In this document: positions 847 to 10,596 of the stretch, in pieces
Layout: each line of letters starts with the position of its first letter
Position numbering within the stretch: the first letter of the stretch is position 1
Assembly (NCBI GenBank): GCA_021129695.1
Contig: JAJOKU010000086.1
Coordinates: 1-11,314, forward strand
Origin: a candidate division NPL-UPA2 bacterium
GTDB lineage: Bacteria; NPL-UPA2; JAGMAN01
Direction of reading: 5' to 3'
Length of the DNA stretch: 11,314 nucleotides
Translations under genes and position numbers: made by a program
The notes under the pieces: generated by a model
Told to the model about the DNA's origin: nothing
What the model saw: the letters and a program-made list of their open reading frames with translations, nothing else
Databases searched by the model: none

Positions 847-2472
847 ATGTATAAGGAAGTAGTGATTAGTGTGGATGAGAGCGAAGTAAGGGCAGCTCTT
901 CTTGAGGATAAGGTCCTACAGGAATTTTTCGTTGAGCGCAAGGGGCGCAGAGGAATTGCGAGCAATATCTATAAGGGAAGGGTGGAGAGTATCTTGCCAG
1001 GTATGGAGGCGGCCTTCGTTGATATCGGCCTGGAGAAAAGCGGGTTCTTATATGTCTCCGATGTGGCTAAGGAGGTGGACATCTTCGAGGAGATGGTAGC
1101 CCCTCGCTTCGCTCGGGACAACCAGGTAGGCAACCCCTCGGTTGACTCGGGACGGCGAGAAGCCCGCCCTGAGCGTAGCGAACGGGTAGCCACTTACGGG
1201 GAGGAAGAAGCCAGCAAATTAGAGTCCGGCAAGAGAGCTCGTCCCTCCCCCTCCATAGAAAATATATTGAAGAAAGGACAGGAGATATTGGTGCAGGTAG
1301 TTAAGGAGCCAATGGGAACGAAGGGGGCCCGCATTTCCTCCCACATAAGTCTACCGGGTAGATTCCTGGTCCTTATGCCAACGGTGGAGCACATCGGAGT
1401 TTCTCGGAGGATTACTGATGAGAAGGAGCGGGAAAGGCTGAGGAAGCTCCTCCAGAGGCTGCGTCCGGCCGGTATGGGTCTCATTCTCCGCACTGCCGGT
1501 GAGGGAAAAGGAAAAAAAGAATTTCTTGCCGATATCAGGTATTTGACCCATCTTTGGCGCAGAATAGAAAAGATAGCCCGGAGATGCCGAGCCCCGAAGC
1601 TTATTCATGAGGAATTAGGGTTGATCTGCCGGGTAGCCAGGGATTTTTTTTACTCCGACATTAATAGAGTGGTGATTGACTCTAAGGAGGAGGGGGCTGC
1701 CCTGAAGGGATTCTTAAAGACTTTCCTCCCCGATTTAAGGCCGAGGGTGGAGACCTATAGGGGTAAGGAGCCACTGTTTACTTCTTATGGTTTGGAGAAA
1801 GAAATAGAAGCGGCGCTGGAAAGCAAAGTCTGGTTAAAGAGCGGAGGGAATCTGGTCATTGAGGAAGGAACGGCGGCCACAACTATTGACGTGAATACGG
1901 GAAGATATGTTGGCCGGGAGAGTTTGGAGGAGACGGCTCTTCGGATAAATCTGGAGGCTGCCTCTGCAATTGCCAGGCAGTTACGCCTCCGGGACCTGGG
2001 TGGAATTATTATCATTGATTTCATTGACATGGAATTGCAGAAGAACAGGAAGAAGATCTTGAGAAGACTGGAGGAAGCTCTCAAGCGTGACCGCTCGAAA
2101 ACAGAAATTCTCCAGTATAGCCCATCAGGGTTAGTGGAGATGACAAGGCAGAGAATAAGGGAAAATTTATCCAGAACCTTATGCCAGTCCTGCCCCTACT
2201 GTCAAGGCCGAGGATTAGTTAAGTCCGTAGTTACTATCAGCATCGATGCCCAAAGGAAGCTGCGCAGGCTCTCTTCCCGGTCGGCAGAGAAGGAAATAGT
2301 CCTTAAGGCCCATCCACAGGTTGCTATGCATCTTCTAAATGAAGCCAAGGAAAGTATCTCTAAATTAGAGAGGCAGTTCCGAAAGCAAGTGGTGATTGAG
2401 GAGGACAGGGATCTGCATTTAGAGGAGGTTAAGTTTCTCTCCAGGATGGGGGAGGAGCTTGACACAGAGTAA
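847..2472 (+). CDS. rng: Ribonuclease E/G family endoribonuclease
   Basis: A 541-aa RNase G-type enzyme that cleaves single-stranded, AU-rich RNA, normally in rRNA maturation and mRNA decay in the cytoplasm. Visible elements: S1 domain from about residue 36 (YKGRVESILPGMEAAFVDIG, 42-61); the VKEPMGTKGARISSHISLPGR block (152-172); DNase I-like catalytic region with the two metal-binding aspartates D348 in TIDVNTGRYVG and D391 in IIIIDFIDM; zinc-link cysteines C449 and C452 in CPYC; and a short C-terminal region without the long RNase E scaffold. Start ATG 847 has a GGAG a few bases upstream. Odd feature: residues 86-115, in the variable loop of the S1 domain, are encoded by a 90-bp palindromic insertion flanked by 7-bp direct repeats (separate entry). 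All catalytic motifs remain intact, so the enzyme is probably active. It lies directly upstream of rplU/rpmA, a common arrangement. Confidence 0.95.
   Translation: MYKEVVISVDESEVRAALLEDKVLQEFFVERKGRRGIASNIYKGRVESILPGMEAAFVDIGLEKSGFLYVSDVAKEVDIFEEMVAPRFARDNQVGNPSVDSGRREARPERSERVATYGEEEASKLESGKRARPSPSIENILKKGQEILVQVVKEPMGTKGARISSHISLPGRFLVLMPTVEHIGVSRRITDEKERERLRKLLQRLRPAGMGLILRTAGEGKGKKEFLADIRYLTHLWRRIEKIARRCRAPKLIHEELGLICRVARDFFYSDINRVVIDSKEEGAALKGFLKTFLPDLRPRVETYRGKEPLFTSYGLEKEIEAALESKVWLKSGGNLVIEEGTAATTIDVNTGRYVGRESLEETALRINLEAASAIARQLRLRDLGGIIIIDFIDMELQKNRKKILRRLEEALKRDRSKTEILQYSPSGLVEMTRQRIRENLSRTLCQSCPYCQGRGLVKSVVTISIDAQRKLRRLSSRSAEKEIVLKAHPQVAMHLLNEAKESISKLERQFRKQVVIEEDRDLHLEEVKFLSRMGEELDTE
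1095..1191. mobile_element. MITE-like palindromic insertion inside rng, flanked by 7-bp direct repeats
   Basis: GGTAGCC occurs at 1095-1101 and again at 1185-1191, exactly 90 bp apart, enclosing 83 bp. The enclosed DNA begins CCTCGCTTCGCTC and ends GAGCGTAGCGAACG, so its ends are imperfect inverted repeats around the core GAGCGNAGCGA (minus strand at 1104-1114, plus strand at 1171-1181). Each end can fold by itself: GNA triloop, two pairs, tandem sheared-type G.A/A.G mismatches, then a G/C stem (1099-1119 and 1167-1186). The net gain is 30 codons, so the reading frame is kept and the element is translated as residues 86-115, a basic, low-complexity stretch containing RPERSER. Excision in silico restores a short acidic linker (EEMVATYGEEEAS) like those of other RNase G proteins. 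Interpretation as a mobile element with a target duplication is inference. Confidence 0.7.
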
Positions 2473-3106: not shown

Positions 3107-4231
3107 GTGGACAGAAAGAATATATTAAAGGATGTCAGGCGAGTGGTGATAAAGGTGGGAACAGCCCTCATCGGCTCTCCCACGGGTGGGCTAAATTTTG
3201 GTAGAATGGAGAAGCTGGTAGATGAGGTAGCCGCCTTACTCCGCTCCCGGGTAGAGGTCATCCTGGTAACCTCTGGCGCCATTGGGGCCGGGATGAAGGA
3301 GCTGGGACTGAAAGCAAGACCGAAGACTATTCCTCAAAAGCAGGCCGCGGCCGCTGTTGGTCAGAGTCGCCTTATGCACCTCTATGAACAGCTCTTCCAG
3401 AAGAGGGATTACCTGGTTGCTCAGATACTGCTCACTCAGGATGACTTCAATGACAGAAGACGCTATCTGAATGCCCGCCATACCTTGATGACTCTACTCA
3501 AATTCAAGGTCATCCCCATCATCAATGAGAACGATTCGGTGGCCGTGGAGGAGATTAAATTTGGCGATAACGATACCCTGTCAGCTTTGGTCACCAACCT
3601 CATTGAGGCAGATCTACTTATCCTCCTCTCAGACATTGATGGATTATATACCGCTGACCCCCATAAGAAGAGGGAAGCAAGACTGATCCCGGTGGTTGAG
3701 GGAATTGATTCCAGGATGGAAGAGTTAGCTGGGGGAGCGGGCCTGCCTGCCTCTACCGGGGGGATGTACACCAAGCTGCAGGCGGCCAAGATGGTTACTG
3801 GCTCAGGGCTGTCAATGGTCATCGCCAATGGTAATACTTCCCAAGTAATTCAAAGGATTTTAGGTGGAGAAGAGGTAGGAACCTTGTTCCTGCCTAAGGG
3901 AGAGAAGATAGCCAGCCGTAAGAGGTGGATTGCTTTCACGCTCCCTCGACAGGGCAGAATATTCATTGACCAGGGAGCTAAAGAGGCTTTGAAGCTTAAG
4001 GGAAAGAGCCTGCTTCCCAGCGGCATTGTCAGGGTGAAAGGAAAATTTAGCGGAGGAGATGTAGTAAGCATTATTGACGGCAATGACCGGGAGTTTGCCC
4101 GGGGACTGAGCAACTATTCCGGGGAGGAAGTAGATGAGATAAAGGGAGTAAAGACCAAGGACATCCAGTCCATTCTTGGTTATAAGCCTTACGATGAAGT
4201 GGTCCATCGGGATAATTTAGTGATACTTTAG
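3107..4231 (+). CDS. proB: Glutamate 5-kinase with C-terminal PUA domain
   Basis: Phosphorylates L-glutamate to glutamyl-5-phosphate, the first step of proline synthesis and the usual point of proline feedback inhibition. It is 374 aa from GTG 3107, close to the usual length of about 370. Amino-acid-kinase domain: VVIKVGTALI (13-22), VTSGAIGAG (54-62), NDRRRYLNARHT (115-126), the substrate-binding INENDSV (139-145), the FGDNDTLSALV segment (152-162), LSDIDGLYTADP (174-185) and STGGMYTKLQAA (216-227). A PUA domain follows from about residue 280. The frame is open back to 2978, but that overlaps rpmA and adds unrelated residues. GTG 3107 has AGGTG about 11 nt upstream, lies 16 bp after rpmA and gives a normal N-terminus. 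The partner gene proA is displaced by the inverted-repeat block that begins at the proB stop codon. Confidence 0.96.
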   Translation: MDRKNILKDVRRVVIKVGTALIGSPTGGLNFGRMEKLVDEVAALLRSRVEVILVTSGAIGAGMKELGLKARPKTIPQKQAAAAVGQSRLMHLYEQLFQKRDYLVAQILLTQDDFNDRRRYLNARHTLMTLLKFKVIPIINENDSVAVEEIKFGDNDTLSALVTNLIEADLLILLSDIDGLYTADPHKKREARLIPVVEGIDSRMEELAGGAGLPASTGGMYTKLQAAKMVTGSGLSMVIANGNTSQVIQRILGGEEVGTLFLPKGEKIASRKRWIAFTLPRQGRIFIDQGAKEALKLKGKSLLPSGIVRVKGKFSGGDVVSIIDGNDREFARGLSNYSGEEVDEIKGVKTKDIQSILGYKPYDEVVHRDNLVIL

Positions 4232-4464
4232 CTTCGGCATAGCCCCTCGCTCATTCTCGGCACACCCTGAAATCTCTCAAGAGATTTCGGGCACTTAGTC
4301 CCGGGAATTCTCCGAATTCCTCGGGGCGCTCCATGCGAGTGTGATGATCATAATAGACATAGTCTTTCTTGGGAGCGTGCCTCCGAGGGTTTTCTTGCCG
4401 CTTATGCCTCTTAAGTAACAGCGGCAAGAAAAAATCCGCTCGGGGCTAAGGCCGAAGCTTAAGT
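4225..4464. repeat. Nested inverted-repeat block (MITE-like) between proB and proA
   Basis: The whole proB-proA spacer is built of inverted repeats. The outer arms are ACTTTAGCTTCGGC at 4225-4238 and GCCGAAGCTTAAGT at 4451-4464 (13 of 14 bases complementary). Pairing continues inward through AGCCCC/GGGGCT after a small asymmetry. Inside are: GAAATCTCT/AGAGATTTC (4269-4277, 4280-4288) with CCC/GGG outside a one-base bulge; CCCGGGAATTC/GAATTCCTCGGG (4300-4325), again with a single T bulge; an imperfect pair 4319-4332 / 4371-4388; and TTTTCTTGCCGCT/AGCGGCAAGAAAA (4390-4402, 4420-4432; 17-nt loop). The left outer arm includes the proB stop codon and the right one ends 10 bp before the proA ATG. 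No T-tract follows any hairpin on the plus strand, so it is not an obvious terminator. A clean flanking target duplication was not found. Confidence 0.72.
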
Positions 4465-7076: not shown

Positions 7077-7118
7077 AGTAAGGGCGGAAAATAATTTTGA
7101 CAAATCAGAAACATACGG

Positions 7119-7270
7119 CAAGATATCGCCTTCGGCGATACTTCCAAGGGGTTCCCCCTATGGCGGCGTGTCCTTCGGACTCGCCGGTTACCCCTTAAGG
7201 GGTGTCAGATTACACCCCTTAACAACCCCAATCCGTATCGGAATTATTGAAATTCCGATACTCCAAGATA
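7119..7270. mobile_element. Hairpin cluster flanked by 7-bp direct repeats, upstream of argS
   Basis: CAAGATA occurs at 7119-7125 and 7264-7270, enclosing 138 bp that consist almost wholly of palindromes. In order: TATCGCC/GGCGATA with a TTC loop (7124-7140); AGGGG/CCCCT with a TTC loop (7147-7159) and an outer CCA/TGG pair with one bulge; CGGCG-T-GTCC / GGAC-T-CGCCG with a TTC loop (7164-7186); the 14-bp perfect palindrome ACCCCTTAAGGGGT (7190-7203), which competes with TTAAGGGGTGT/ACACCCCTTAA (7195-7205, 7212-7222); and GTATCGGAATT/AATTCCGATAC (7235-7245, 7251-7261). None has a following T-tract. The flanking direct repeat has the same length as those around the rng and lipBA insertions. 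The rest of the UPF0280-argS spacer (7077-7118, 7271-7324) holds no gene that I can support. Confidence 0.68.
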
Positions 7271-7324
7271 ATAGGGATGGGAAAAGCGGTTATGGGCAGA
7301 TGCTGAGAGGATAGAGAGAGTAAG

Positions 7325-8982: not shown

Positions 8983-10596
8983 ATGAAATGTCGTGTTCTT
9001 GATCTTGGGTCTCTTGATTACCGAAAGGCCTGGGATTTACAGAAGGAATTGATGGAGAAGAGATTTCGACGGGAAGTTCCCGATACCTTAATCCTGGTTG
9101 AACATCCTTCTGTCTTCACTATCGGTAGAAGTGGAAGCAGAAAGAATCTCCATGTTTCAAATGAATATTTAGAATCCCTTGGCATCCCTGTCTACGAAAT
9201 AGATCGGGGTGGGGACATAACCTATCACGGGCCGGGCCAGCTCATGGGCTACCCCATATTGGACTTAACCGAACATGGGCGCGATGTCCATCTTCTGCTT
9301 CGTAGTCTGGAGGAGGTCTTAATCAGGCTGTTAGCTGACTGGGAAGTGGAGGCTGGGAGAGTGGCTGGATATACTGGTGTATGGGTCGGTGATGAGAAGA
9401 TTGCCTCCATCGGCATTGGAGTCCGTCACTGGATAAGCTTCCACGGATTCTGTCTGAATGTGAATCCAGATATGAAATATTTTTCTATGATAAGTCCCTG
9501 CGGGATTAGAGATAAGGGAGTAACCTCACTAACTAAGTTAAAAGAGGAAAGCAGCGAAGGAATTGATCTTCATGAGGTGAAGGAGAGACTGGTTCAACAC
9601 TTTGGGGATGTCTTCACGGTAGAGATGGAGCACGGCAAGAAGATTCCTCGCTTCGCTCCTTCCCCCAATAACCCTCTTCCTACCTGTCGGCAGACAGGAA
9701 GGCATAGGAAAAAAACTTCCTACGCTTCGGGAAGATTAGCTCCCTGGCTGAAGAAGAGGTTGCCAGCCGGGGAAGTCATTAGTCAAACCAAGACTATATT
9801 AAGAGACCTTAACCTGAACACCGTCTGTGAGAGTGCCCACTGCCCCAACTTAGGAGAATGTTTCTCTCGGAGAACGGCTACCTTCATGATTTTAGGTAAA
9901 AGGTGTACCCGCAACTGCCGATTCTGTGCCGTGGAGAAGGGAAAACCTCTGCCCGTTGACCCGGATGAACCTAAAAGGGTAGCTCAGGGCTGTCTTAGAT
10001 TGAGGTTAACCCACGCCGTCATTACCTCCGTTACCCGTGATGACCTTTGGGATGGAGGAGCCCGGCAGTTTAAGGAAACCATCTTTGAGCTGCGCCGTCT
10101 CCTCCCAGAAATTACCATTGAGATCCTTGCTCCTGATTTCCAGGGGTCATGGGAGAGTCTGAGGATAGCCGTGGAGAACCGTCCTCACATCTTTAATCAC
10201 AATTTAGAGACAGTGCTTCGCCTCTATCCTGAGGTAAGGCCCCAGGCAGATTACCGAAGGTCCTTAGAACTTTTGAGAATGGTTAAGAAATTAAATGGTA
10301 AAATATATACCAAATCAGGCCTGATGGTGGGCCTGGGCGAGACCAGGGAAGAAGTTCTAAAAGTAATGTCTCATTTGCGAGAGGTAGGATGCGACTTCTT
10401 AACCATTGGTCAATACTTAGCTCCCTCTAAGAATCACCTGCCCGTGAAAGAATATATTCTTCCTGAAACATTTGATGAATATAGAGAAGCGGCCAGGGAG
10501 TTAGGCTTCCTTCAGGTCGCTTCCGCCCCCTTTGTCCGCAGCTCCTATCAAGCTGAGGAGCAATCTGGCCGGATTATTGGAGGCCCCCTGTTTTGA
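8983..10596 (+). CDS. lipB/lipA: LipB-LipA fusion: octanoyltransferase plus lipoyl synthase
   Basis: One 537-aa ORF covers two consecutive steps of protein lipoylation. Residues 1 to about 215 are LipB, which moves octanoyl from acyl carrier protein to lipoyl domains: [21 protein letters not shown] (75-95), catalytic K139 in [20 protein letters not shown] (153-164) and catalytic C173 in SPCGI. Residues about 251-537 are LipA, the radical SAM enzyme that inserts two sulfurs: auxiliary-cluster cysteines C282, C287, C293 ([12 protein letters not shown]), SAM-cluster cysteines C308, C312, C315 (CTRNCRFC), ITSVTRDD (347-354) and the closing RSSY (519-522). Both halves look complete. The linker (about 216-250) is encoded mostly by a palindromic insertion with 7-bp flanking repeats (separate entry). 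ATG 8983 is 2 bp after argS; no ATG or GTG suited to LipA alone is seen at the junction. lipB and lipA are normally separate genes. Confidence 0.93.
9639..9737. mobile_element. MITE-like palindromic insertion at the LipB/LipA junction, flanked by 7-bp direct repeats
   Basis: GAAGATT occurs at 9639-9645 and 9731-9737, enclosing 85 bp. Immediately after the first copy comes CCTCGCTTCGCTC (9646-9658), identical to the first 13 bp of the insertion in rng, at the same position relative to its 7-bp repeat. Inside are the hairpin CCTGTC/GACAGG with loop GGCA (9683-9698), extended by CCT/AGG across one mismatch, and CTTCC/GGAAG around TACGCTTCG (9716-9734). The net gain of 92 bp is not a multiple of three. 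Removing it would put lipB into a frame that stops at TAG about 50 bp further on and would separate it from the lipA frame, so the insertion may have created the fusion. Mobility is inferred from the repeat structure only. Confidence 0.68.

Follow-up and report, generated by a model that had tools for sequence, protein, structure and literature searches.

Genomes hold many fusions of consecutive enzymes, yet the event behind a given fusion can rarely be seen. The window analysed here, a stretch of 11,314 nucleotides from a bacterium of the candidate division NPL-UPA2, contains a single open frame at 8983 to 10596 (+) in its ORF listing. It encodes 537 amino acids, LipB followed by LipA, and raises the question of how two genes came to be read as one. 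An initial annotation had ascribed the fusion to the insertion of a palindromic element. The junction was compared with the own genome (G000; 909,787 bases in 167 contigs, 69.6% complete), with two genomes of the same genus, G001 (81% complete) and G002 (90% complete), and with G003 of the same order. At this one locus, an unfused sister state, a repeat-derived linker and the frame arithmetic are all readable.

Both halves of the open frame scored above the NCBIfam cut-offs, lipB (TIGR00214) over residues 30-211 and lipA (TIGR00510) over residues 248-526. LipB and LipA are thus both complete and share one frame. The LipB (octanoyltransferase) part at 8983 to 9630 (+) shares 81-84% identity with its three closest unfused counterparts. 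The LipA (lipoyl synthase) part spans 9733 to 10596 (+). When the query was aligned with 11 other fusions, C282, C287, C293, C308, C312, C315 and R519-S521 were invariant in the LipA part and C173 in the LipB part. We take these to be the cluster and catalytic residues. The model for LplA-LipA fusions (NF053790) scored 392 bits, below its cut-off of 800, and matched the LipA part only. A structure predicted from the 12 aligned fusions had a mean pLDDT of 82.7 and a pTM of 0.52. Most of both domains exceeded 70 and residues 219-260 and 525-537 fell below 50. The linker of about 40 residues between LipB and LipA is thus predicted to be flexible or disordered at 219-260.

A match to the fused protein was obtained in 55 of 60 genomes, the own genome included. 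The closest LipBs among the matches listed were P0121, P0122 and P0123 with 84, 84 and 81% identity; they are 219, 248 and 223 amino acids long and unfused. The LipB and LipA searches were restricted to proteins whose length was 0.55-1.75 times that of the query, which kept fused proteins out of the LipB search. In the search with the fused protein, nothing but the query itself was above 54% identity among the best 120 of 7999 matches. The best of the 120 LipA matches listed, from a Peptococcaceae MAG, was 70% identical. The LipA of G003 (P0252) was among these 120, and none was recognised from the genus. LipB or LipA matches that carry the name candidate division NPL-UPA2 included P0133, P0134 and P0242, and other records of relatives bear the label Nitrospirae or Nitrospirota.

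The loci of the relatives were then inspected. In G003, lipB and lipA are separate and adjacent, with four stops between them in one frame. Both same-genus genomes, which are incomplete, gave one match each, to LipB only, and no LipA match. In G002, lipB has a run-on tail over a remnant of the lipA start in the +1 frame. This remnant is identical to window positions 9717-9769 in 46 of 53 nt, and the remainder of lipA is absent there. In G001, lipB continues into a 38-nt stretch of which 37 nt equal window positions 10475-10512, the lipA C-terminus; further lipA matches were not found at this locus. The scrap beside lipB in G001 indicates that lipA is the native neighbour of lipB in the genus. 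In both genomes lipA was apparently lost by deletions with different end points, and lipB was kept (loci L062 in G001 and L058 in G002). The glycine cleavage H protein, a lipoylation target, was found in one of the four genomes, G001, and not in G002, G003 or the 69.6% of G000 that is represented.

The initial annotation had predicted that without the extra sequence lipB would run on to a stop and lipA would lie in the +1 frame. G002 shows this state. P0122, the representative of a cluster of 7, shows the lipB run-on alone and ends VSSPAKEEIASRGAI. Counted from the ATG at 9625 up to the base that precedes AGCTCCC, the distance is 113 nt in the window and 51 nt in G002, a net difference of 62 nt and not the 92 bp that had been thought removable. 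A length of 2 mod 3 puts lipA into the lipB frame, which bears out that the single ORF depends on the extra sequence. The borders of the insert are provisional, since placing 73 extra nt between two TTCC also gives a good alignment. For the sister junctions, separate or overlapping genes with a single GAAGATT had been expected. The overlapping run-on with lipA in +1 was indeed observed in G002 and separate genes in G003, but the G002 junction did not show a single GAAGATT.

Three modules were distinguished in the extra sequence. Module A, at 9636 to 9660 (+), corresponds to the left end of an interspersed repeat, CAAGAAAATTCGTCGCTTCGCTCCT, and is identical to it in 23 of 25 positions, whereas the best score in five random 1.82-Mb sequences drawn from a first-order model of the G000 loci was 18 or 19. 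Its profile E value was 0.00008, with 2.2 for the next best place in the window. When the 99-nt junction was used as a query in G000 (E up to 10), it found itself, 21 places over its left 22 nt (91%) and one 14-nt match. GAAAATT is preceded by CAA in 19 of the 21 places, by CAG in another and by TAA in the last. One copy starts at a contig end, and the upstream flanks of the other 20 differ from one another. The repeat therefore starts near CAAG, and the left GAAGATT, at 9639 to 9645 (+), lies inside it. Beyond this left end, the full-length body and the right end of the repeat were not found at the junction, where a short piece of the middle, module B, is all that was seen.

Module B, CCTTCCCCCAATAACCC at 9658 to 9674 (+), is identical in 16 of 17 positions to a later part of the C26 copy of the repeat. 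A 245-nt query from that copy (E up to 1) gave 46 matches in G000, itself included, 16 in G001, 5 in G002 and 12 in G003, many of them short and weak, and matched the window with an E value of 0.0012. Elsewhere in the four genomes module B occurs in one place, inside the C26 copy and downstream of module A there. Since the pattern was chosen after its sighting in C26 and a reversed control also matched once in G000, the weight of module B lies in its position and not in its count. In the G003 copy L108 module A is closely trailed by a similar stretch, showing that shortened copies of the repeat exist. Module C, at 9676 to 9702 with no strand assigned, is a short palindrome around CCTGTCGGCAGACAGG (palindrome 9683-9698). 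With at most one mismatch it occurs in seven other places, one in G000, two in G001, four in G002 and none in G003; the reversed control occurs nowhere. The fold of the insert was mildly better than that of shuffles (z -1.7 and -2.1, with 11 and 7 of 200 as good), and its inverted pairs are weak. Taken together, the matches support an extra sequence that is at least partly repeat-derived.

Some copies of the module A repeat touch other reading frames. Translated from the opposite strand, module A frequently reads MRSEATNFL. At 5 of the 32 distinct copies checked (L013, L094, L098, L106 and L113) an open stretch of 187-385 codons continues in that frame beyond the repeat, which looks as though it provides the gene start. 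In L010 and L108 the long runs are in a different frame, and the other 25 copies have none.

The initial annotation had read the junction differently, as one 85-bp palindromic element at 9646-9730 of the same family as an insert in rng, a host gene that we take to be ribonuclease G-like, with GAAGATT as a 7-bp target duplication. The two GAAGATT, at 9639-9645 and 9731-9737 (+), are present as exact direct repeats with 85 nt between them, and the 13-mer CCTCGCTTCGCTC directly after the left one is also found in rng at 1102-1114. The rng insert is itself a real insertion of 90 nt with GGTAGCC on both sides, and the predicted run-on and +1 frame in G002 and the lipB tail of P0122 agree with this proposal as well. 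However, the last 35 or so bases of the proposed element resemble the lipA start of G002 itself. Of the 24 nt that lead up to the right GAAGATT, 15 match G002 in a fixed register, which was equalled by 1 of 20,000 shuffles and by none of 3632 other registers. Six lengths from 14 to 30 were tried and the shuffle p ranged from 0.00005 to 0.00135. Translation in the lipA frame yields 13 residues for the window that are similar to RGKDSHASRRLAP in G002. From the register match and this likeness, 9704 to 9737 (+) is probably the ancestral lipA start and not insert. Elsewhere in G000 the sole match to this end (E up to 10) is 14 nt long.

The target duplication is doubtful as well. In G002, which is without the bulk of the insert, GAAAGATT and GAAGGTT lie 12 nt apart at the junction, the latter being the counterpart of the right GAAGATT. 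With a counterpart for both, the two copies are not a clean duplication, unless G002 keeps a stub of the same element. The left copy moreover lies within the longer match to the module A repeat. As for the kinship, the 13-mer has three exact places in G000 and its reversed control two; the third place, on C31, belongs to a brief stretch that resembles the rng insert. GTAGCC or GCAGCC precedes the 13-mer region in five of the six left ends of the rng family, so that this end of the rng insert is partly element. All six read CGCTCC where rng has CGCTTC, and the 13-mer shared by junction and rng is therefore most likely due to chance. The family tie was dropped, as the 13-mer is no family signature and the junction insert matches another repeat over 25 nt. 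We consider a single 85-bp element rather unlikely. The part of the proposal that is retained is that repeat-derived sequence appears to have fused lipB to lipA.

The rng insert is an observation in its own right. At window positions 1095-1184 it is in frame, palindromic and specific to the lineage, being absent from G001, G002 and G003. Left-end copies of its family were found in G001 (5) and G002 (1), with further partial matches in G000. Three of the six copies (L123, L124 and L131) lie within open frames of 304-549 codons. By eye, the intergenic stretches at 4230-4460 and 7080-7310 of the window are rich in short palindromes and are likely to hold more such repeats.

Whether the fusion is derived was addressed with a quick LipB tree of 96 rows, consisting of the query, 50 of the 119 other listed fused proteins and 45 of the 120 listed LipB matches. 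The rows were picked by search rank, so the tree is uninformative on the frequency of fusion. The LipB of the query groups with P0121-P0123 (SH-aLRT 99), within a group of 15 rows in which the other 14 are unfused (SH-aLRT 94, an unstarred branch). One level further out, a weakly resolved group of 27 rows (88, drawn open) includes four other fused rows, and the remaining 46 are farther away. P0133 and P0134 group with P0124 of G003. Four changes between the fused and unfused labels are needed on the tree, of which the starred branches force two. In these 96 rows the query nests among unfused proteins and shares no fusion event with the known fusions. The fusion could instead be ancestral, with relatives that split it or lost lipA; LipB-LipA fusions are widespread and both same-genus genomes are without a LipA match. 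Against this stand the nesting of the query LipB with unfused rows, the separate genes of G003 with stops between them, and the lipA remnant of G002, which is out of frame. An ancestral fusion is therefore highly improbable, and the fusion looks derived and recent. The DNA evidence gives good support for a derived fusion of the two genes at a junction that stems from a repeat.

A different concern is that the gene order and the repeat are real, but that the single frame is an error of assembly or sequencing, or that LipA arises as a protein of its own from the in-frame ATG at 9625. The assembly is metagenome-like, with its 167 contigs. The fused frame depends on a run of seven A at 9709 to 9715 (+), where a one-base change would break the fusion. 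Of the 21 further copies of module A, ten are about 50 nt or less from contig ends (C136, C133, C113, C87, C78, C55, C26, C8, C6 and C5), indicating that the repeat breaks up the assembly. The ATG at 9625 to 9627 (+), found in a scan for start codons, is the last in-frame ATG before the LipA core and a possible internal start, 36 codons upstream of that core. On the other side, the frame 3' of the A run is backed by the lipA start of G002, and the scan of the lipB-lipA frame found no in-frame ATG, GTG or TTG between 9628 and 9759. The lipA scraps beside lipB in both G001 and G002 speak against a chimeric join, and a chimera of lipB with a foreign lipA was rejected on this ground. In the fused-protein search P0001 was listed for 2 contigs, perhaps of the same assembly. 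Altogether, an artefactual frame or a separately made LipA is unlikely, though it is the weightiest of the alternatives considered.

Of all explanations, we favour as probable that a repeat-derived insert joined the overlapping lipB and lipA in one frame. In the ancestor of the genus, lipB and lipA would have been neighbours that overlapped in different frames. This ancestral frame is drawn from the protein tail of P0122 and from the one G002 remnant, where most of lipA is gone and the remaining sequence may have drifted. A degenerate copy of the interspersed repeat, made up of module A, the shortened body B and the palindrome C, would then have arrived at the junction with the net gain of 62 nt over the sister. 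As 62 is 2 mod 3 and the added sequence is free of stops in the lipB frame, lipB would read through into lipA, giving the 537-residue ORF with its linker. The order of these events and the exact ends of the insert are our inference. Presumably the product is a single protein that catalyses octanoyl transfer followed by sulfur insertion. Roughly 1 in 8 insertions should by chance have a suitable length mod 3 and some 20 codons free of stops, so no selection is needed for the origin of the fusion.

A bolder reading is that a wandering repeat made a working two-step lipoylation enzyme, that the fusion is the reason why lipA survives here, and that the repeat families actively make coding sequence. 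Both unfused same-genus sisters appear to have deleted lipA at the locus, with different end points. We regard this reading as speculative and rather improbable. If it were true, repeats would act as makers of coding sequence in three ways, by the junction fusion here, by the in-frame insert in rng and by start-codon leaders at a few other genes. More generally, the locus suggests that short interspersed repeats in the little-studied NPL-UPA2 can supply coding sequence, as the palindromic elements of Rickettsia do.

The protein architecture is not new, as all 119 other LipB-LipA fusions among the matches listed carry PF21948 and PF04055 in 479-630 amino acids. In the open-access literature searched, we found no paper on the LipB-LipA fusion as such and none in which a palindromic repeat had joined two genes. 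The available part of PMC10332631 has nothing on a LipB-LipA fusion, and the queried terms are absent from the NPL-UPA2 genome paper PMC6305446. The known fusions, for example from Propionispora, Desulfoscipio gibsoniae, Elusimicrobia and Planctomycetes, have the same order of a LipB-type domain and then LipA in one ORF, and some are called 'Multifunctional fusion protein' in UniRef. They differ from the query in that they are 46-54% identical to it among the matches listed, that the 50 placed on the tree fall in other clades, and that the linkers of the 11 aligned are different. These distant fusions, known here as proteins, are the nearest approach to fused relatives without the repeat. The LplA-LipA fusion of NF053790 likewise combines an attachment enzyme with lipoyl synthase, but a lipoate-protein ligase replaces LipB.

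The closest parallels for the insert are the palindromic elements of Rickettsia and MITE fusions. In the available parts of the publications, these are small interspersed repeats in coding sequence that add in-frame residues (PMC2229807, PMC10969869). They belong to another host group, and the likeness is one of description and not of sequence. Unlike them, the junction insert joins two neighbouring genes and is a shortened mosaic without clear inverted ends. The rng insert resembles the junction insert in being repeat-derived, lineage-specific and placed in a conserved gene, but it is of another family and stays within one gene. In conclusion, LipB-LipA fusions and in-frame repeat inserts are both already known, and it is their combination that is new.
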